This document shows, in pieces, positions 849 through 47,082 of a stretch of DNA of 64,000 nucleotides (position 1 is its first letter; the number at the start of each line of letters is the position of its first letter). This DNA comes from Phycisphaerales bacterium. GTDB lineage: Bacteria; Planctomycetota; Phycisphaerae; Phycisphaerales; UBA1924. The notes beneath the pieces are model-generated. The model was given only the letters and a program-made list of their open reading frames with translations. It was not told the origin of the DNA and did not search any database. The stretch lies in contig JAJDDK010000006.1 in NCBI GenBank assembly GCA_029260345.1, positions 186,001 to 250,000 on the forward strand, given 5' to 3'. Made by a program: the position numbers and the translations under genes.

Positions 849-3194
849 ATGAACACAACCATGCGTCTCGTCGGACTCGTGATCATCCTTGGCGTTCTTG
901 CCTCGACGCAAACCGGCTGCTCATCGCACAAGAGCGCGGCAGTGGTCGAATCGGCGCCGATCGCTGACCCCGGCTTTCTTGAGCAGTATGCCGCGACATA
1001 TCGATTCCGCGCCGGCGTGCCGACATCGATCACGCCGACGCCGCAGAATGATGCGGTGCTGTTCCTGCGATCGGGGCCGCGCAGTGTCGTGCGCGATTTG
1101 TATTCGTATGACGTCGAAACCGGCGAAGAGCGCGTGCTGTTGACGGCGGATCAGATTCTTCAGGGTGAGACCGAAGTGCTGACTGCCGAGGAGAAAGCTC
1201 GGCGCGAGCGCATGCGGCTCTCTGCGCGAGGCATTGCGACGTATTCCTTGTCTGAGGATGGCACTCAGATTCTCGTTCCGCTTTCCGGCGATCTGTATGT
1301 TGTGGATCGGATGACCGGTTCGGTGCGCACGCTCTCAAGCGATGCCGGTTATCCGATCGATCCGCAGTTCTCCCCAGACGCAAGCATGATCGGCGTGGTG
1401 CGCGACAACGACCTCTATGTCATGGAAGTGTCAACTGGCGCCGAAGCGCGGCTCACGCTGCGTGAGCACGACGCTATTAGTTATGGCGTTTCCGAGTTTG
1501 TTGCGCAAGAGGAGATGAGTCGTCACCACGGATTCTGGTGGTCGCCGGACGGCGAGCGCATCGCATTTCAGCGCACGGATGAAAGCGACGTCGAAGTGCT
1601 GCGCATCATGGACCCCACGAAACCGGAGAATCCGCCGCAGGAGTGGAGATATCCGCGACCGGGCAAGACAAACGCGACGGTTGAACTGGGAATTATGCGT
1701 GTGCCGGCGTTGAACACGACGGGCGAGACGCCTGTTCCACCGACCTCCGAAACGATTTGGGTGCAGTGGGATCGCGAACAGTACCCGTATCTCGCAACGG
1801 TGAAGTGGAGCAAGCACGGTCCGCTCACGATTCTTGTGCAAAATCGAAAGCAAACGGAAGCGGTGCTGCTCGCCGTTGATGAAGAGACGGGATACACGAC
1901 GCCGCTGCTGATTGAGTTTGACACCGCGTGGGTGAATCTCGATCAAGATATGCCCGTGTGGCTGCCAGATGACGCCGGCTTCCTATGGACGACGGAGCGC
2001 AACGGCGCCTGGCAGCTTGAACATCGCAATCCAGACGGCACATTGGCGCGCACGCTCACGCCGGTTGACTTTGGTTATCGAGGCTTCGTGCATTTTCAGG
2101 AAGAGACTGGTGATGTGATTGTGACCGCCGGTGGCGGAATCGGGCCGCAGTCCATCGGGCTCACGCCGGAATCCTCAATGACTTCGTTCGATGGGAAGGC
2201 GCCGGCGACGATGGTGGCGCACGGCTGGCGCGTGCCGCTTGACGCAACGCGCGGCGGGCCTTCGCAGCGCACGACGGCGCCGGGCATGCACTCCGCAAAG
2301 TTCGCGGACAAGGGCGCCCTGCATGTGCACAGCTATCAAACAATGAGCGGTGAGCGCGGCTGGGATGTGCTTGGCCAAGGCGGCGAGAAGCTCGGTGAAT
2401 TGACTTCGGTTGCGGAAGAGCCTTCATTTGATGTGAATATCGAGTTCACGACGGTTCGCAGCGGGCGTGTCTTTGATGCGTACATCATTCGGCCGCGCGA
2501 TTTTGTGGCTGGGCAGAAGTACCCGGTGATTGTGAGTGTGTACGGCGGGCCGCACTCCAAGACGGTGGTGGCGACGCCGGATCGATATGTGTTTCAGCAG
2601 TGGATCGCAGACCACGGATTCATCGTGGTGCAGACCGATGGTCGCGGCACACCGAACCGCGGGCGCGCGTGGGAGCGAGCCATCAAGAATGACTTGATCT
2701 CAACGGCGCTTCCCGATCAGGTTGCGGCGCTCACGGCGCTTTGTGAGCGATATCCCGAACTCGACAAAGATCGTGTGGGGATTTACGGATGGTCGTTCGG
2801 TGGGTATTTCGCGGCTCACGCCGTGATGCAGCGGCCGGACATTTTTCATGCCGGTGTCGCCGGTGCCCCCGTCGCGGACTGGGCGGACTATGACACGCAC
2901 TACACCGAGCGGTACATGGGCCTTCCGGAGGAAAACGCATCCGGATACGAACAGGCCAGTGTGTTGACGCATGCGCCAAAGCTGGAACGGCCACTGCTGA
3001 TCATCCACGGGACCGCGGATGACAATGTGTACTTCATGCACAGCCTGAAGATGACGGAAGCGTTGTTCCTCGCGGGCAAAGATTTCGATTTCATCCCGCT
3101 GGCGGGCTTTACGCACATGGTGCCGGATCCGCTGGTGACGAATCGGCTGTACACGGCGATCATTGAGTTTTTCAATGAGAACCTGAAGGACTGA
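849..3194 (+). CDS. S9 family (dipeptidyl-peptidase IV-like) serine peptidase lipoprotein
   Basis: A 781-residue secreted prolyl-oligopeptidase-family enzyme. The N-terminus is a lipoprotein signal with lipobox TQTGC (Cys 24), so the protein is probably membrane-anchored in the periplasm. Residues about 45-480 form the DPPIV-type beta-propeller (repeats such as PQFSPDASMIGVV and GFWWSPDGERIAFQRTDES). The C-terminal alpha/beta hydrolase carries the nucleophile elbow GWSFGGY (Ser 649), acid in HGTADDNVYF (Asp 724) and base in GFTHMV (His 756), a complete triad. Family knowledge: such enzymes release dipeptides after proline or alanine. This fits with the peptide transporter just upstream: peptides cut outside could be imported. 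That link is inference. Confidence 0.93.
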   Translation: MNTTMRLVGLVIILGVLASTQTGCSSHKSAAVVESAPIADPGFLEQYAATYRFRAGVPTSITPTPQNDAVLFLRSGPRSVVRDLYSYDVETGEERVLLTADQILQGETEVLTAEEKARRERMRLSARGIATYSLSEDGTQILVPLSGDLYVVDRMTGSVRTLSSDAGYPIDPQFSPDASMIGVVRDNDLYVMEVSTGAEARLTLREHDAISYGVSEFVAQEEMSRHHGFWWSPDGERIAFQRTDESDVEVLRIMDPTKPENPPQEWRYPRPGKTNATVELGIMRVPALNTTGETPVPPTSETIWVQWDREQYPYLATVKWSKHGPLTILVQNRKQTEAVLLAVDEETGYTTPLLIEFDTAWVNLDQDMPVWLPDDAGFLWTTERNGAWQLEHRNPDGTLARTLTPVDFGYRGFVHFQEETGDVIVTAGGGIGPQSIGLTPESSMTSFDGKAPATMVAHGWRVPLDATRGGPSQRTTAPGMHSAKFADKGALHVHSYQTMSGERGWDVLGQGGEKLGELTSVAEEPSFDVNIEFTTVRSGRVFDAYIIRPRDFVAGQKYPVIVSVYGGPHSKTVVATPDRYVFQQWIADHGFIVVQTDGRGTPNRGRAWERAIKNDLISTALPDQVAALTALCERYPELDKDRVGIYGWSFGGYFAAHAVMQRPDIFHAGVAGAPVADWADYDTHYTERYMGLPEENASGYEQASVLTHAPKLERPLLIIHGTADDNVYFMHSLKMTEALFLAGKDFDFIPLAGFTHMVPDPLVTNRLYTAIIEFFNENLKD

Positions 3195-3583: not shown

Positions 3584-3610
3584 GTGTGGAAGGATAGGGG
3601 GCTTTTCTGA

Positions 3611-3845
3611 ACCCTTCTCCCGCCGGGAGAAGGTGGTCCGCCGCAGGCGGATCGGATGAGGGGGAAACGGTGCTCGATAGTCAATTCCAACGGCACTGTG
3701 GTCTATTCCGTCGTTGGATAAATCCACAATTCTTGGTGTTCGCATAGTGAGCGCGTGGCCTTGACTGAGGACAGCCAAGACCACGGCACCGTTGAATTTT
3801 TCACTGTGCGCCCCTCATCCCGGCCCTCTCCCGGGGGAGAGGGAG
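3611..3845. repeat. Two copies of the CCCTCTCCC/GGGAGAGGG hairpin repeat between gyrB and the DCC gene
   Basis: Copy one (3611-3664) has CCTTCTCCCgccGGGAGAAGG followed by a second hairpin around TCCGCCgcaGGCGGA and the end ATGAGGGG. Copy two (3811-3845) is CCCCTCATCCCGG then CCCTCTCCCgggGGAGAGGG. The same two-part module (CCCTCAYCCG tag plus a C-rich/G-rich hairpin) occurs at 20849-21007, 42516-42734, 42888-43170 and 44928-44979. Such modules resemble REP or MITE-like elements in other high-GC bacteria. The rest of 3584-3851 shows no gene. Confidence 0.8.
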
Positions 3846-15296: not shown

Positions 15297-15310
15297 GCGA
15301 TTGAAATTGG

Positions 15311-15374
15311 AAACCGCTTCTTTACAGGCGCGGTTCGGAGTGGGGAAACCGCTTCCTGATGGGCGCGGTTCGGA
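15311..15374. repeat. Two adjacent copies of an AAACCGCTTCCT-GGGCGCGGTT repeat
   Basis: Copy 1 at 15311-15337 and copy 2 at 15346-15374 share the pattern AAACCGCTTCyTnAyrGGCGCGGTTCGG; AACCGC pairs with GCGGTT to give a hairpin. Further copies lie at 43037-43064 (inside the ThiF gene) and 45681-45708. The two copies lie between the terminator and the end of glyA. This is a repeat family distinct from the CCCTCTCCC module. Confidence 0.8.
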
Positions 15375-15388
15375 TTCGTGTACTTCGC

Positions 15389-20848: not shown

Positions 20849-21007
20849 GCCCTCACCCGTCATCACTTTGCGATGCCACCCTCTCCCAAGGGAGAGGGAT
20901 TTGGGAGCGCTCACATGTCATTGCATCGCAATTACATCCTCTCCCACAGGGGAGGAGATTCGGAACCTCCACCTCGGTCCTCCCCCGCGGGGCGGGGGAG
21001 GGTGGGG
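20849..21007. repeat. Cluster of three CCCTCTCCC-type hairpin repeats
   Basis: Three modules: CCCTCACCCGTCATC...CCCTCTCCCaaGGGAGAGGG (20849-20899), CCTCTCCCacaGGGGAGG (about 20937-20955), and CCTCCCCCGCgGGGCGGGGGAGG (about 20978-21004). They fill the interval between the zinc-ribbon membrane protein gene and the phosphatase end, and could terminate transcription of the kinase-phosphatase operon. No gene is seen in 20755-21008. Confidence 0.8.
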
Positions 21008-41123: not shown

Positions 41124-41843
41124 ATGCTGTTACGCGTAATTCCTTCCATCCTCCTGGTCACGATCACCTCGATGAATGTGCGCGCGGGCGTCATGTCCGA
41201 GTTGCTCTATAGCCAGTCGCCCTCGGCTGGGCCGGCGCACATGGCCGCGGGCGAAGGCGATAACCTCTTGTTCGACCCCGTCCGGACTGCCGATTCGTTC
41301 GTCGTCACCGGCAATTGGTCGGTCCAGACCGTGGCCTAGTGGGGAGGCAATGAGACCAATATCCCCTCGACTCCGCTCGGGAACATTGAGTCGTTCACGA
41401 TCAGCTTCTTCTCTCCGGCTCCTGGGGAGGCGCCGAGCGCGGTAAGCATGGTCTACACCGAGACCGTTTTGATCGGTGACACCAACGCGACCTTGACCGG
41501 GAACACCGTTGGCGAGGAAGGGGCGCCCGAATTCCGATTCGAGCACACACTCGCCGCGCCGGTGAACTTCAGCCCCACAGTACACCCGAAATATTGGATC
41601 ATCTTCGCCAACTTTCAGAACGGCAACCTCATCCCGCCCGAGCTCAATGAGTCGTTCCTCTGGTCCGCATCGTCGGAAGGCGACGATTTACTCGCGCAAG
41701 ACAATTACGACGGCGCCGGCTTCACCTTCGTGGACGGCCCGCCCACTAATGCGGCGTTCGAGTTCTATGGTCAGGTTCCCGCGCCCGGTCCAATCGCTCT
41801 GCTCGGACTCGCGAGTTTCAGCATGTTGCGCCGGAGACGGTGA
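41124..41843 (+). pseudogene. Secreted protein with VPAPG-type C-terminal sorting signal, interrupted by an in-frame TAG
   Basis: The ATG at 41124 (GGAGA 8 bases upstream) opens a signal peptide (MLLRVIPSILLVTITSMNVRA). The frame is stopped by TAG at 41337-41339 after GNWSVQTVA, but the same frame continues without any further stop to 41843: WGGNETNIPSTPLGNI, SFFSPAPGE, NFSPTVHPKYWI and the tail VPAPGPIALLGLASFSMLRRRR, the layout of a PEP-CTERM-like anchor (motif, hydrophobic helix, Arg cluster). The stop follows Ala and precedes Trp, and TGG to TAG is a one-base change, so a nonsense mutation of a Trp codon is likely. Family of unknown role; surface display. Confidence 0.7.
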
Positions 41844-41892
41844 ACGGACGAACAACGAGGCGAATCCAGGCCATGTGTTCAATTGGTGCGCG

Positions 41893-41928
41893 CAAGCACG
41901 GCCTCGCCTTTGGCGAGACCATGGCACG
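41893..41928. repeat. CATGGCC-type hairpin repeat, copy 2
   Basis: CACGGCCTCGCCtttGGCGAGACCATGGCACGGG, matching the copy at 40805-40840 with few differences. It sits just after the interrupted sorting-signal gene and before the end of the ThiF-family gene. Confidence 0.7.
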
Positions 41929-41945
41929 GGTTGCCTTCCAAATAA

Positions 41946-43508
41946 TCACGCCCCAACAAATCGCGCGTAAATCGCCCGCGCTTTTCCTGCGTCCTCTACT
42001 CCCTTGATGATCGCGCGGCCCGTCGGGAAGACGGTGAGTTCGATGGGTTCGGTGTGGAGGACGCCGCGGAGGAGGTGGTCGGTGGTGTGGAAGTCGCCGT
42101 GGGGGGCGAGGCGGGCGGCGAGCGCGGGGAGGTTGATCGCGGCGCGGGCGCCGGGGGTAATTTGCACGGCGTTGCGGCCGCAGAGGGAGACGGCGCTCGA
42201 AGCGCTGATGTTGTCGAGGTAGTCGAAGTGGTGATGCGCGCAGCAGGGGCAGTCGGGGTTGCGCGCGTGTGTGGTGTCGATGCGGCGGGTTGTTGATCGC
42301 CATGCGTCGATCTCGAGGAGAGCGCGCGTGACGGAGGCGAAATCGCCAGAGAGGATTTTGAGCGCTTCGGTCGCCTGGAACCCGGCGATGATTGAAACGG
42401 CGGGGCCGAGGACGCCGGCGGTGTCGCAGGTTGGCGCGCTGCCGGGCGGCGGGGCGTCGTCGAACAGGCAGCGGAGGCAGGGGGTTGGGGGGGAAGGAAG
42501 TGGGATTGAATTGGAGCCCTCATCCGTCATCCCGACGTTGTCGGGCTGACACCTTCTCCCAGGGGGAGAAGGATCTTGCCTCCTCCCCCGCCTTGCGGGG
42601 GAGGACTGAGGAGGGGGCTCGGTATATACACGCTTCTTCTCGTCTCGACCGTCGACAGCGCGAGGAGGCATGGAGGAGTGAGTAGGCGAAGTAGCCCTCC
42701 CCTTATCCCCTCCCGCGGGGCGGGAGGGGGAGGTCGGAAGCACCGTCGTCATCAAACCTGTTGTTCCGATGACGCCGGCGTAGACGAGTGGGATGTGGCG
42801 CGCGATGGCGAGGTCGTTGAGAAGAAAGCGCGTTTCGAAGTTGTCGGTTCCGTCGAGGAGGAGGGTGATGGGAGGGAAGGTGACTCGGCCCTCATCCGTC
42901 ATCTCTTCGAGATGACACCTTCTCCCAAGGGGAGAAGGGTTTGTGGTGGCACAGCTCTTTGAGCTGTGCGTTGCCTGTTGAATCCCCTCACCGGGAGATT
43001 GTGTGCCACTGCTCTGTGAGCAGTGCGTTCGGTGTGAAACCGCTTCCTCACGGGCGCGGTTCGGATCTATCCGGCCCTCACCCGGCTGCGCTTCGCTGCG
43101 CCGACCTCTCCCAGTGGGAGAGGTGGGGAGCCCCTCACCCAGGCCCTCTCCCGTTGGGAGAGGGAGAAGGTCGTCGATGTTGTTTGCGCTTAAGTCATCA
43201 ATGATCGCGCGCACGTTGCAATTGGGGTCGATTGCGTACAGCGCTTCTTTCGCGGCTTCCGCCTTTGGCACGCCTCGATTCGCATGATCGTCAGTGAAAA
43301 GAATCTGCCGCTGGAGGTTGGTGTGTTCGACGATGTCGCGGTCGATAATCGTCAGCCAGCCGACACCGGCGCGGCAGAGGGTGTCGGCGAGATGCGTGCC
43401 GAGGGCGCCGCACCCGATGATCGCGGCGTGCGCGTGACGCAACGATTCCTGCCCGGCGTCGCCGATCTCGGGGAGGATGCGCTGGCGGTGGTGGCGGTCA
43501 AGCGTCAT
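41946..43508 (-). CDS. ThiF/MoeB-family adenylyltransferase with two repeat-derived insertions
   Basis: A 520-residue E1-like enzyme that would adenylate the C-terminus of a ubiquitin-like sulfur carrier (ThiS or MoaD type). The adenylation core is intact: AAIIGCGALGTHLADTLCRAG, TIIDRDIVEHTNLQRQ, LLLDGTDNFETRFLLND, GVIGTTGLMTT, PCLRCLF and CDTAGVLGPAVSIIAGFQATEALK; the zinc Cys pair NPDCPCC follows. Two low-complexity blocks (residues about 114-209 and 256-334, rich in Pro, Gly, Arg and Ser) are exactly where the DNA carries intergenic hairpin repeats in frame. Without them the protein would be near the usual 340 or so residues. Whether it is active is not known. Overlaps the upstream gene by 11 bases. 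Confidence 0.82.
   Translation of the reverse strand: MTLDRHHRQRILPEIGDAGQESLRHAHAAIIGCGALGTHLADTLCRAGVGWLTIIDRDIVEHTNLQRQILFTDDHANRGVPKAEAAKEALYAIDPNCNVRAIIDDLSANNIDDLLPLPTGEGLGEGLPTSPTGRGRRSEAQPGEGRIDPNRAREEAVSHRTHCSQSSGTQSPGEGIQQATHSSKSCATTNPSPLGRRCHLEEMTDEGRVTFPPITLLLDGTDNFETRFLLNDLAIARHIPLVYAGVIGTTGLMTTVLPTSPSRPAGGDKGRATSPTHSSMPPRAVDGRDEKKRVYTEPPPQSSPARRGRRQDPSPPGRRCQPDNVGMTDEGSNSIPLPSPPTPCLRCLFDDAPPPGSAPTCDTAGVLGPAVSIIAGFQATEALKILSGDFASVTRALLEIDAWRSTTRRIDTTHARNPDCPCCAHHHFDYLDNISASSAVSLCGRNAVQITPGARAAINLPALAARLAPHGDFHTTDHLLRGVLHTEPIELTVFPTGRAIIKGVEDAGKARAIYARFVGA
42516..42734. repeat. Hairpin repeat block inside the ThiF gene, second insertion
   Basis: Three CCCTCTCCC-type modules in frame in the coding sequence: CCCTCATCCGTCAT...CACCTTCTCCCagGGGGAGAAGG (42516-42573), CCTCCCCCGCcttGCGGGGGAGG (42580-42622) and CCCCTCCCGCggGGCGGGAGG (42694-42734). 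They encode Ser/Pro/Gly/Arg-rich peptide in place of nothing in the family. Confidence 0.85.
42888..43170. repeat. Hairpin repeat block inside the ThiF gene, first insertion, three repeat families stacked
   Basis: In one in-frame block: CCCTCATCCGTCAT...CCTTCTCCCaaGGGGAGAAGG (42888-42940); GGCACAGCTCtttGAGCTGTGC (42947-42970) and GTGCCACTGCTCtgtGAGCAGTGC (about 43002-43026), a third hairpin family also at 47034-47058; AAACCGCTTCCTCACGGGCGCGGTTCGG (43037-43064); CCCTCACCCGGCTGCG...CCTCTCCCagtGGGAGAGG (43073-43128); and CCCTCACCC...CCCTCTCCCgttGGGAGAGGG (43131-43170). Confidence 0.85.
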
Positions 43509-44382
43509 ATCGATCTCGGTCGCGCGGTCCGTGAATGCGGTAGTGAACGTGAAAAACGCGTCGGCCCCAATAGTAGGAGTCGTGATTCGTGCGCATGACG
43601 CCATCATTGTCCACGTAGTTTGAGAGCGTCTCGTGAAGCCGCGAAACGTATTGAGACCAAATGCGTCCTTTTCGATCGGTCAATAGGAAGTACAGGCCGC
43701 CGTCACCGAAACGCTTCCCATCCGCAATTAGGTCAAATGATCCATCCGGTCCAATCTCGTGACGAAGAAATACAGTTGCATTGCCCCGCGGCAGGGGGAA
43801 CACAGCTTTCAGACATTGGGCGCCATTCGGAAGTGATCCGGCTCCGTAGATGCCGGAAAACACAATGTCGCCAGTCGACTTCAATTGTCGATGCCAGACC
43901 GTGTACCGAACGGCTCCACTTTCTTTCTCCCGCAGTTGGATGATGCGACTCTGCAATCCTGCCGCAGTGTCAAGCGGGCGAGTTGGAATGTTCAACTGCT
44001 GCATCCGACGGCCGTAGAGACTCCCCATCATGAAGCCGGCTGGTCGAAACAGGCGGCTCCATTCGCACCATGCATCAAGTTCATATCTTGCAGTATGAAG
44101 ATAGAAATCACGGATCGTCGGATGAATGCGGTTGGTATGATCGCTCGAAAGCCCAAGGGCTTCGAGATTTTCAAACAAGCCTGCGTTCGGCTCACTTGGA
44201 TCGATTCGAAGATCTTCGTCCTCGGCAAGGCGTTGTACGTAGTTGTCAGCAACGACATCAACATTCCCGAACGGTCCCATCAACCACTCATTCTCTGCAG
44301 GATCAATGCGACGGCCGCGCGCCATGACCCAGCGCTGACAGAGCCAGTCCTGAAAGCGCTGCGATGGATAGTCAAACATCAT
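43498..44382 (-). CDS. Uncharacterised protein between glycosylasparaginase and ThiF genes
   Basis: A 294-residue protein without signal peptide or clear membrane segment. It begins MFDYPSQRFQDWLCQRWV and has a late strand-rich region (CLKAVFPLPRGNATVFLRHE, GSFDLIADGKRFGDGGLYF, RKGRIWSQYVSRLHETL). The end reads FHVHYRIHGPRDRDRYDA. I do not recognise a family. It follows the asparaginase stop by 18 bases and overlaps the ThiF gene start by 11 bases, so three genes form one operon on the minus strand. Confidence 0.72.
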   Translation of the reverse strand: MMFDYPSQRFQDWLCQRWVMARGRRIDPAENEWLMGPFGNVDVVADNYVQRLAEDEDLRIDPSEPNAGLFENLEALGLSSDHTNRIHPTIRDFYLHTARYELDAWCEWSRLFRPAGFMMGSLYGRRMQQLNIPTRPLDTAAGLQSRIIQLREKESGAVRYTVWHRQLKSTGDIVFSGIYGAGSLPNGAQCLKAVFPLPRGNATVFLRHEIGPDGSFDLIADGKRFGDGGLYFLLTDRKGRIWSQYVSRLHETLSNYVDNDGVMRTNHDSYYWGRRVFHVHYRIHGPRDRDRYDA

Positions 44383-44400: not shown

Positions 44401-45603
44401 TCAATCATCGAACAGTGTCGCGCACTTTTCAAGCCGTACACCGGTTGAATCTGCAATCGCGAATTCGCGCACGCCGCGCATGCAGGCGGAGCCGAACTGT
44501 CCGTCTTTGCGCACGGCGTAGAAGACGACGTTGAAATTGGGGCGGCCGCGCTCGTCGAGGAGGCGCTGCACTTTGGTGCAGTCCGCGATTTTTTGCAGTG
44601 CGTAGAGGCATGCGTCTTGCGGGTGATCGCCGGCGTCCATGCGCATGACGATGGTGTGGGCGCCGCAGATTTGGATGACGGCTTCGCCGCGACCGGTCGC
44701 GCCGGCGGAGCCGACTTCGTTGTCGGTGTAGAGGCCGGCGCCGATGATGGGCGAATCGCCGACGCGCCCGGGGAGTTTCCAGGAGAGGCCGCTGGTGGTG
44801 GTGCATCCTGCGAGGTCCGCGCCGGGGGCGGTGAGCGCGGAGCAGTGGATGGTGCCGGTGGTGTAGGGGACGCCGTTGATGGTTTCGTCGACGCCGGGGT
44901 ATTGAGAGGAAGCGAGACTGCTTTGGCCCTCACCCGACCTCGCTTTGCTCGGCCACCCTCTCCCAGAGGGAGAGGGGAGTTGTGCGCCTTTGTTGTCTTT
45001 CACCGGAAGATCGAGTTCATCGTCCTGCAGCCAATCGTCGTCGCGGTTGAGTGTGCTGCGCCATTTGAGCCAGGCCTGGCGGGCTTGTTCGGTGAGGAGA
45101 TTCTCTTCTTTGAAGCCCATACGCAACGCAAACTTGAGCGCGCCTTCACCAACGATCATGCAGTGATCCGTGCGGCGGGCGACTTCACGCGCCACCGCGG
45201 CGGGATTCTTGATGTTGCGCAAAGCCGCGACCGCGCCGCTGCGATGCATTGGCCCATGCATGACGGAAGAATCGAGTTCGACGACGCCCTCTTCGTTGGG
45301 CAGGCCGCCGTAGCCGACGCTCATATCGTTGGGGTCGTCTTCGACGATTTTCACGCCGGCGACGATGGCGTCGAGCGGGTCGCCGCCTTGCGCGATGAGT
45401 TGTTGCGCGAGCCGCACGGTTTCGAGGCCGTTGCCGGAAGCAATGACGACGGGGCCGTCGCCGGCAATGTTGTTGTTGCGCTGCTGGGCTTGTTCGAAAC
45501 GGCGGCGTGTTTCGTTTGGTTGCGCGCCGGCGAGGAAGGGGAGGCCGAAGGCGGCGGCGCCGGCGGCGGCGAGGAAGGCGCGGCGGTCGTTTTGCGTTGG
45601 CAT
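44401..45603 (-). CDS. N4-(beta-N-acetylglucosaminyl)-L-asparaginase family protein with repeat-derived insertion
   Basis: A 400-residue Ntn-hydrolase. The N-terminus has a twin-arginine-like signal (NDRRAFLAAAGAAAFGLPFLAGA), so export in folded form is likely. Family blocks: GGDPLDAIVAGVKIVEDDPNDMSVGYGG, ALRNIKNPAAVAREVAR, the cleavage-site region GTIHCSALTAPGADLAGCTTTSGL with the autocatalytic Thr, and KLPGRVGDSPIIGAG. Such enzymes cut the Asn-GlcNAc bond of glycopeptides after self-cleavage. Just before the Thr block there is an insertion (KGAQLPSPSGRGWPSKARSG) coded by a hairpin repeat at 44928-44979; it sits at the linker between subunits, where it may be tolerated. ATG at 45603 with GAAGGA upstream. 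Confidence 0.85.
   Translation of the reverse strand: MPTQNDRRAFLAAAGAAAFGLPFLAGAQPNETRRRFEQAQQRNNNIAGDGPVVIASGNGLETVRLAQQLIAQGGDPLDAIVAGVKIVEDDPNDMSVGYGGLPNEEGVVELDSSVMHGPMHRSGAVAALRNIKNPAAVAREVARRTDHCMIVGEGALKFALRMGFKEENLLTEQARQAWLKWRSTLNRDDDWLQDDELDLPVKDNKGAQLPSPSGRGWPSKARSGEGQSSLASSQYPGVDETINGVPYTTGTIHCSALTAPGADLAGCTTTSGLSWKLPGRVGDSPIIGAGLYTDNEVGSAGATGRGEAVIQICGAHTIVMRMDAGDHPQDACLYALQKIADCTKVQRLLDERGRPNFNVVFYAVRKDGQFGSACMRGVREFAIADSTGVRLEKCATLFDD
44928..44979. repeat. CCCTCTCCC-type hairpin repeat inside the asparaginase gene
   Basis: CCCTCACCCGACCTCGCTTTGCTCGGCCACCCTCTCCC then agaGGGAGAGGGG, the same module found between genes elsewhere, here in frame within the coding sequence at the linker before the catalytic Thr. 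Confidence 0.85.
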
Positions 45604-45680: not shown

Positions 45681-45708
45681 AAACCGCTTCCTGACGGGCG
45701 CGGTTCGG
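45681..45708. repeat. AAACCGCTTCCT...GGGCGCGGTT repeat
   Basis: AAACCGCTTCCTGACGGGCGCGGTTCGG lies in the 132-base gap between the phosphofructokinase and asparaginase genes; matches copies at 15311, 15346 and 43037. Confidence 0.8.
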
Positions 45709-45735
45709 ATTCGGAGCGATCACTCGCCGCGAACT

Positions 45736-46941: not shown

Positions 46942-47033
46942 TGGATCCTCCGAAGTGAACGGAAATGAGATCGGCATGGTAGAGGATCGGGGGCGGCCTT
47001 CCGCTTCCGGGCGTCTTTCCAGTCGGCGCGGAA

Positions 47034-47058
47034 CGCACAGCTCAGAGAGCTATGCCAC
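47034..47058. repeat. GCACAGCTC-type hairpin repeat, upstream of the lipoprotein gene
   Basis: GCACAGCTCagaGAGCTATGCCACCGCAGA resembles the element inside the ThiF gene (GCACAGCTCtttGAGCTGTGC at 42949). Both form short hairpins with GAGCT/AGCTC arms. It sits in the gap between the phosphofructokinase and lipoprotein genes, which run apart. Confidence 0.6.
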
Positions 47059-47082
47059 CGCAGAACGGGTTAGACTGCAGGC

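Follow-up and report, generated by a model that had tools for sequence, protein, structure and literature searches.

Palindromic repeats in frame within two loops of a ThiF/MoeB-type gene of a Phycisphaerales bacterium

How several kinds of short hairpin repeat can come to lie inside a conserved gene without breaking it is the question raised by a ThiF-family gene in a 64,000-nucleotide stretch of the Phycisphaerales bacterium assembly GCA_029260345.1 (contig JAJDDK010000006.1, positions 186,001 to 250,000 of the forward strand). This whole stretch is referred to as the window, and positions are window positions unless a contig (C) or an extracted stretch (L) is named.

A ThiF/MoeB-type gene with intact core motifs

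The gene lies on the minus strand, runs from 43,508 down to its stop at 41,946 and encodes a product of 520 aa. The family proposed in a sequence-only reading of this DNA was borne out by the PF00899 domain, which matched a 525-aa reading of the gene with an E-value of 6e-63 (212.5 bits, cut-off 28.1). The NCBIfam ThiF/MoeB models align in up to three matching stretches, none of them at its cut-off, with scores for the insert-containing protein of 182.5 against a cut-off of 275.25 for thiF and of 115.6 against 376.55 for moeB. Judged by homology, with both equivalog scores below cut-off, the protein is a ThiF-type adenylyltransferase, either ThiF or MoeB. Matches to the gene were obtained in 60 of the 61 genomes searched, its own included. 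In an alignment of the window gene with 49 homologs, 44 columns are invariant over all 50 sequences, including G32, G34, D56, R57, D58, K82, D219, D222, C344, C347, C420 and C423. To the glycine-rich ATP site, DRD, the lysine, DGTDNF and the two CxxC zinc pairs we assign the roles presumed for these motifs in ThiF; the ATP-site and zinc-site motif residues are among the invariant columns. The frame and the adenylation motifs are thus intact, as had been claimed. A small ORF beside the gene (41448-41843) encodes a C-terminal tail that looks PEP-CTERM-like.

The extreme repeat load of the gene might indicate that it is decaying or inactive and open by luck, a reading that we regard as improbable. 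The invariant columns speak against it, as does the sole other PF00899 gene of the genome (on C8), which is far more distant, with 42 bits against the thiF model compared with 182 for the window gene. This second gene appears by sequence to be a distant paralog, neither of the two reaching the thiF cut-off of 275, and it was rejected as a backup ThiF; therefore, no close backup is seen among the PF00899 genes of this genome. Furthermore, the same pattern occurs in genes for MutS, PcrA, IscS and NadA, and the rough chance of both ThiF blocks being open and in frame is about 0.003, calculated by taking the fraction of frames that are open in non-genic blocks of 200-299 nt (0.152, 11 blocks), multiplying it by 1/3 for length and squaring the result.

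Table 1. Positions of the ThiF/MoeB-type gene, its inserts and the associated repeats and genes (window positions unless stated)
Feature	Position	Strand	Basis or number of places
ThiF/MoeB-type adenylyltransferase gene with two repeat-encoded inserts	41946..43508	-	PF00899, NCBIfam, homologs
Insert 1, residues 116-213 (98 aa)	42870..43163	-	loop alignments; pLDDT <50 at 123-204
Insert 2, residues 259-341 (83 aa)	42486..42734	-	loop alignments; pLDDT <50 at 270-329
A57 copy 1, two small hairpins	42516..42574	+	70 places in stretches examined
B150, ~150 bp, GC-rich hairpin near each end, REPIN/MITE-like	42578..42735	+	28 places
A57 copy 2	42886..42942	+	same type as copy 1
E30, REP-like hairpin	42943..42975	+	7 places
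E30b, REP-like hairpin, type flanking RAYT gene elsewhere	43002..43032	+	16 places
F36	43030..43071	+	13 places
C52, two hairpins, related to A57	43072..43126	+	51 places
D40, hairpin common with C52	43127..43170	+	29 places
Asparaginase-family gene, ThiF neighbour	44401..45603	-	PF01112, E 2e-58
C52 copy in asparaginase gene, in frame	44925..44977 (stretch 44923-44982)	+	repeat alignment
RAYT gene (stretch L113)	1219-1797		E30b copies at 1179-1201 (+) and 1815-1837 (-), inverted

Two long inserts in loops that are short in homologs

Insert 1, the first in protein order, comes after NNIDDLL and ahead of the strand that runs into DGTDNF, and insert 2 directly precedes the CLRC motif; together they amount to about 181 residues or 35% of the protein (Table 1). 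The loop from DDLL to DGTDNF (site 1) measures 103 aa in the window protein compared with 7-27 aa in 28 relatives, and the loop before CLRCLF (site 2) measures 92 aa compared with 10-32 aa and, in one relative, 52 aa. These 28 are the relatives with both loops among 29 aligned, one being cut by a contig end. In 60 further homologs, retained from 80 because they had the required motifs in one frame (20 were dropped, and a few of the genomes are probably also among the 29 relatives), site 1 spans 7-21 aa and site 2 spans 11-32 aa. Matches of the relatives to the 525-aa query typically jump over residues ~121-218 and ~265-345. By these alignments, complete homologs carry short loops at both sites, one parallel case (see below) excepted, and not unrelated sequence of the same length. 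The alignments also set the insert edges, and the added lengths, first estimated at about 95 and 79 residues, become 98 and 83 by homology, the larger belonging to the 42,880-43,170 block.

An AlphaFold model of the protein (mean pLDDT 76.7) has ten-residue blocks mostly above 90 in the core and falls below 50 within each insert; the prediction is accordingly one of a confident ThiF core that bears two disordered inserts. Among solved structures, the model is closest to those of E. coli ThiF and MoeB, which tie (Z 31.6-32.1 over 234-241 residues), and the protein is predicted to share the core fold and has the conserved motifs of E. coli ThiF (1zud/1zfn) and MoeB (1jw9). Placed on 1zud, insert 1 falls into the gap from residue 114 to 121 and insert 2 into that from 163 to 166; E. 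coli ThiF has few residues at these places, and the window protein has ~98 and 83 extra. At the RNA level, the two blocks fold more strongly than shuffled sequences (z -8.06 and -3.80), compared with a z of 0.05 for 288 nt of the gene that contain no insert.

Seven repeat types within the inserts

The claim that several repeat families lie in frame in this gene was supported, as the inserts consist of seven types (A57, which occurs twice, B150, C52, D40, E30, E30b and F36), all of which have copies elsewhere in the genome. In plus-strand order, insert 1 reads A57, E30, a short spacer, E30b, F36, C52 and D40, and insert 2 reads A57 and B150. Because A57, C52 and D40 share sequence with one another, as do E30 and E30b, and B150 and F36 stand apart, the seven types fall into four groups, where at least three distinct stacked families had been proposed. 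Copy numbers (Table 1) were obtained by assigning each place to its best type, which gave 214 places in total, 12 of them in the window. Genome-wide, the insert DNA yields 112 and 100 matches, counts that contain the self-match and double hits on palindromes. For the hairpin core TCTCCC-N(1-5)-GGGAGA, 162 sites were counted in the genome compared with 0 for the pattern read backwards; 40 further genomes from this family have 0 to 43 such sites each. An unpaired GTAG or CGTC end tag is absent, by eye, from the consensus of all seven types; B150 has an internal GTAG.

Selection of the elements themselves for openness was rejected, since the share of open frames is near that of shuffled sequences for A57 (0.68 compared with 0.74), C52 (0.75/0.80), D40 (0.76/0.85), E30 (0.81/0.78), E30b (0.78/0.77) and F36 (0.73/0.82), and B150 alone stands out (0.28/0.18).

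A second genome (G048), which belongs to a different family of the order, has the 52-aa loop at site 2 of its ThiF gene (L008:2062-2187). The DNA of this insert contains two inverted hairpins and has 61 matches in its own genome, self and palindrome double hits included, and its repeats resemble those of the window in style. Repeats likely landed independently in the same ThiF loop in G048.

The position of the inserts between structural elements, the mRNA hairpins and the fact that a second lineage has repeats inserted at one of the two sites could all be read as signs that the inserts were co-opted for a function, either enzyme regulation or slower translation between folding units. We give this reading little credence, as homologs mostly have 7-32 aa at these sites, the same repeats occur in many other genes, and, B150 apart, the repeat types show no clear excess of open frames over shuffled sequences.

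A RAYT gene flanked by one repeat type

Three Y1-transposase matches were found in the genome. One of them is a REP-associated tyrosine transposase (RAYT) gene encoding 193 aa at ~C6:148,490-149,068 (NF047646, 99.8 bits, cut-off 80), which is flanked by inverted E30b copies (Table 1); next to the two remaining matches, none of the tested repeat types was found. The link between the repeats and a RAYT gene holds, by neighbourhood, for E30b only, and the repeats would have spread by transposition. The arrangement is that of RAYT-REP systems and REPINs, with inverted E30b copies on both sides of the RAYT gene and, in B150, a hairpin close to either end. Most REPs are described as lying between genes, whereas the repeats here also lie in genes, and the RAYT link is limited to E30b.

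Twelve other genes carry the same repeats in frame

Repeats that invade genes without breaking them had been considered rare. For this genome, that was not supported: 12 other genes in the stretches examined carry the same repeats in frame, a repeat insert is present in the same ThiF loop of G048, and in-frame intragenic repeats have been described for Rickettsia, Opitutus and others. The sample comprised 66 stretches (307,650 bases, ~9% of the genome), namely the window, the surroundings of repeat matches and one stretch around the ThiF paralog, and contained 129 repeat blocks. It is biased towards repeats like those of ThiF, the stretches having been picked for insert similarity or the hairpin core, and an open frame was what first marked a block as genic. 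Within it, 14 of the 129 blocks (11 of 119 outside the window) lie in frame within 13 genes: ThiF (two blocks), asparaginase, MqnC, PcrA, MutS, RlmN, IscS, NadA, ThiD2-ThiE, an RF-1/PrfH-like gene, a methyltransferase, Ada and an aldehyde dehydrogenase.

For ten of these 13 genes (ThiF, MqnC, PcrA, MutS, RlmN, IscS, NadA, ThiD2-ThiE, aldehyde dehydrogenase and Ada), a single family model matches in at least two stretches, the best of which ends or starts near the insert. In MutS the insert splits domain V, in ThiD2-ThiE it is placed towards the linker that joins the protein's two domains, and in the methyltransferase and RF-1/PrfH-like genes the family model covers one side of the insert only. 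NCBIfam scores are below the curated cut-off for ThiF, MqnC, PcrA, IscS, Ada, aldehyde dehydrogenase and the PrfH-like gene; those of them that were searched in Pfam, a set that does not include Ada, have their domains above cut-off. In the asparaginase-family neighbour of ThiF, split matches of relatives stop near residue 196-216 and resume near 237-247, other relatives matching unbroken, and the C52 copy lies in a stretch that varies, presumably ahead of the threonine at which proteins of this family are likely to cleave themselves. Three of the 13 genes are DNA-repair genes, namely MutS (L050), PcrA (L084) and Ada (L099), which fits a remark in PMC3733652.

An assembly artefact in which repeats were misjoined has to be considered, since repeats are where assemblies fail, and is the least probable of the alternatives. 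The genome consists of 8 contigs, and in most of the 13 genes (in two the model covers one side only) the sequences flanking the insert are parts of a single gene, correctly ordered and in frame; misjoins would not be expected to spare the frame.

The inserts could also be removed or skipped after transcription, by RNA splicing, ribosome bypassing (mobile bypass elements occur in yeast mitochondria) or protein splicing, and the enzyme would then be of normal length. The strong mRNA hairpins in both inserts fit this reading, and a disordered load of 35% on an enzyme is surprising; nevertheless, we judge it very improbable. Elements that are skipped need not hold the frame, yet all 14 genic blocks are in frame and stop-free (a property by which they were mainly found), and the preserved frame argues against an insert bypassed by the ribosome. 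Non-genic blocks of at least 200 nt are, in comparison, closed in most frames (22 blocks). A scan for coding signal on both sides of a block, whatever the frame, revealed no frame-breaking genic block, although it recovered only 8 of the 14 that were already known and may have overlooked a broken one. Six blocks with same-strand signal on both sides but no common open frame were inspected and rejected as frame-broken candidates, as all look like gene boundaries, five according to ORFs named by eye and the sixth (C5:725,711) by domain position only. Splicing of the DNA or cleavage of the protein, which had been proposed as a check, likewise found no backing: Pfam at E 0.001 revealed ThiF alone in the protein and no intein or Hint domain, and Rfam on 41,800-43,700 gave two matches at E up to 1, far below cut-off, neither of them a group I or II intron.

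Proposed mechanism and relation to known intragenic repeats

We consider it very probable that REP/REPIN-type elements survive in genes only where they lie in frame in tolerant loops, and that they are translated there and stack. In the ThiF-type gene, two clusters of dispersed REP/REPIN-type palindromic elements would have entered two loops that were already length-variable among homologs. Purifying selection would have acted as the filter, such that the surviving copies are those that kept the frame and were free of stops, because with these the enzyme core still folds. Later elements would then have stacked on earlier ones, as another in-frame addition costs little at such a place, and translation would turn the repeats into two long loops, disordered and rich in Pro, Ser, Gly and Arg, on an enzyme that presumably retains its activity.

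The phenomenon itself is already known from Rickettsia palindromic elements (RPE) and intragenic REPs, and the case described here is unusually extensive, with seven types, two sites and ~181 residues. In Di Nocera et al. (2013; PMC3733652), REPs are described in conserved ORFs of several bacteria, often as dimers or clusters and sometimes at two sites per gene; many of the decorated ORFs are DNA-repair genes, including UvrD-type helicases, and some REPs are associated with transposase genes. The genome studied here shares with these REP-decorated ORFs the short palindromic repeats in conserved ORFs, the clusters, the two sites, the repair genes and the association of some repeats with a transposase gene. 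In contrast, the window types are without the GTAG/CGTC end tag given there for the super-families, and the encoded segments described there (20-30 aa for dimers and groups, 43-82 aa for clusters) compare with 98 and 83 aa in one protein here, built from four repeat groups. RPE, which are ~100-150 bp long and palindromic, are described in PMC3767692 and PMC10969869 as inserted into pre-existing ORFs without loss of frame and at solvent-exposed places. The likeness to RPE (palindromic, within an ORF, frame kept) is one of behaviour, and the window case differs in belonging to another phylum and in having several unrelated short types stacked, one of which lies beside a RAYT gene. By sequence, the RPE-like in-frame intragenic behaviour is found in 14 blocks in 13 genes, and by analogy the ThiF case presumably works like the known intragenic elements. 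A literature search at the level of titles and abstract openings revealed no report of such inserts in Phycisphaerae or in ThiF.

The ThiF-type gene shows that a mobile-repeat load of about a third of the protein is tolerable by a housekeeping-type gene with its core motifs and frame intact. Since 13 genes are affected in the sampled 9%, with hits in the ATPase domain of MutS and in the helicase core of PcrA, the genome offers a natural map of insertion-tolerant sites, and the parallel in G048 makes repeated hitting of the same loops testable. A wider reading is possible and more doubtful, namely that several REP/REPIN families repeatedly invade core-enzyme coding sequence lineage-wide, that different families of the order have independently received insertions in the same loops and that the stacked disordered segments may become new protein material.

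Implications for annotation

Most of the repeat types are open in several frames and can yield spurious ORFs, which is a warning for annotators. Four ORFs spanning repeats (C6:34228-35529, C5:235164-236009, C6:291713-292558 and C2:108895-109764) looked spurious by codon score and were not counted, nor was ORF C4:290218-291858, for which no Pfam or NCBIfam match was obtained. Also left uncounted were the NuoF, RadA-like, Ham1 and DciA ORFs, in which repeats lie only ahead of the domain, and LepA and GroEL (named by eye), in which they lie ahead of the likely start. Seven more repeat blocks are present in the window, at 3610-3845, 15310-15375, 20849-21001, 45681-45710 and 47032-47059, none of which was counted as genic. 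In stretch L071 (C5:536-2460), a repeat block lies between two genes that are phage-like by eye, one of them capsid-like.
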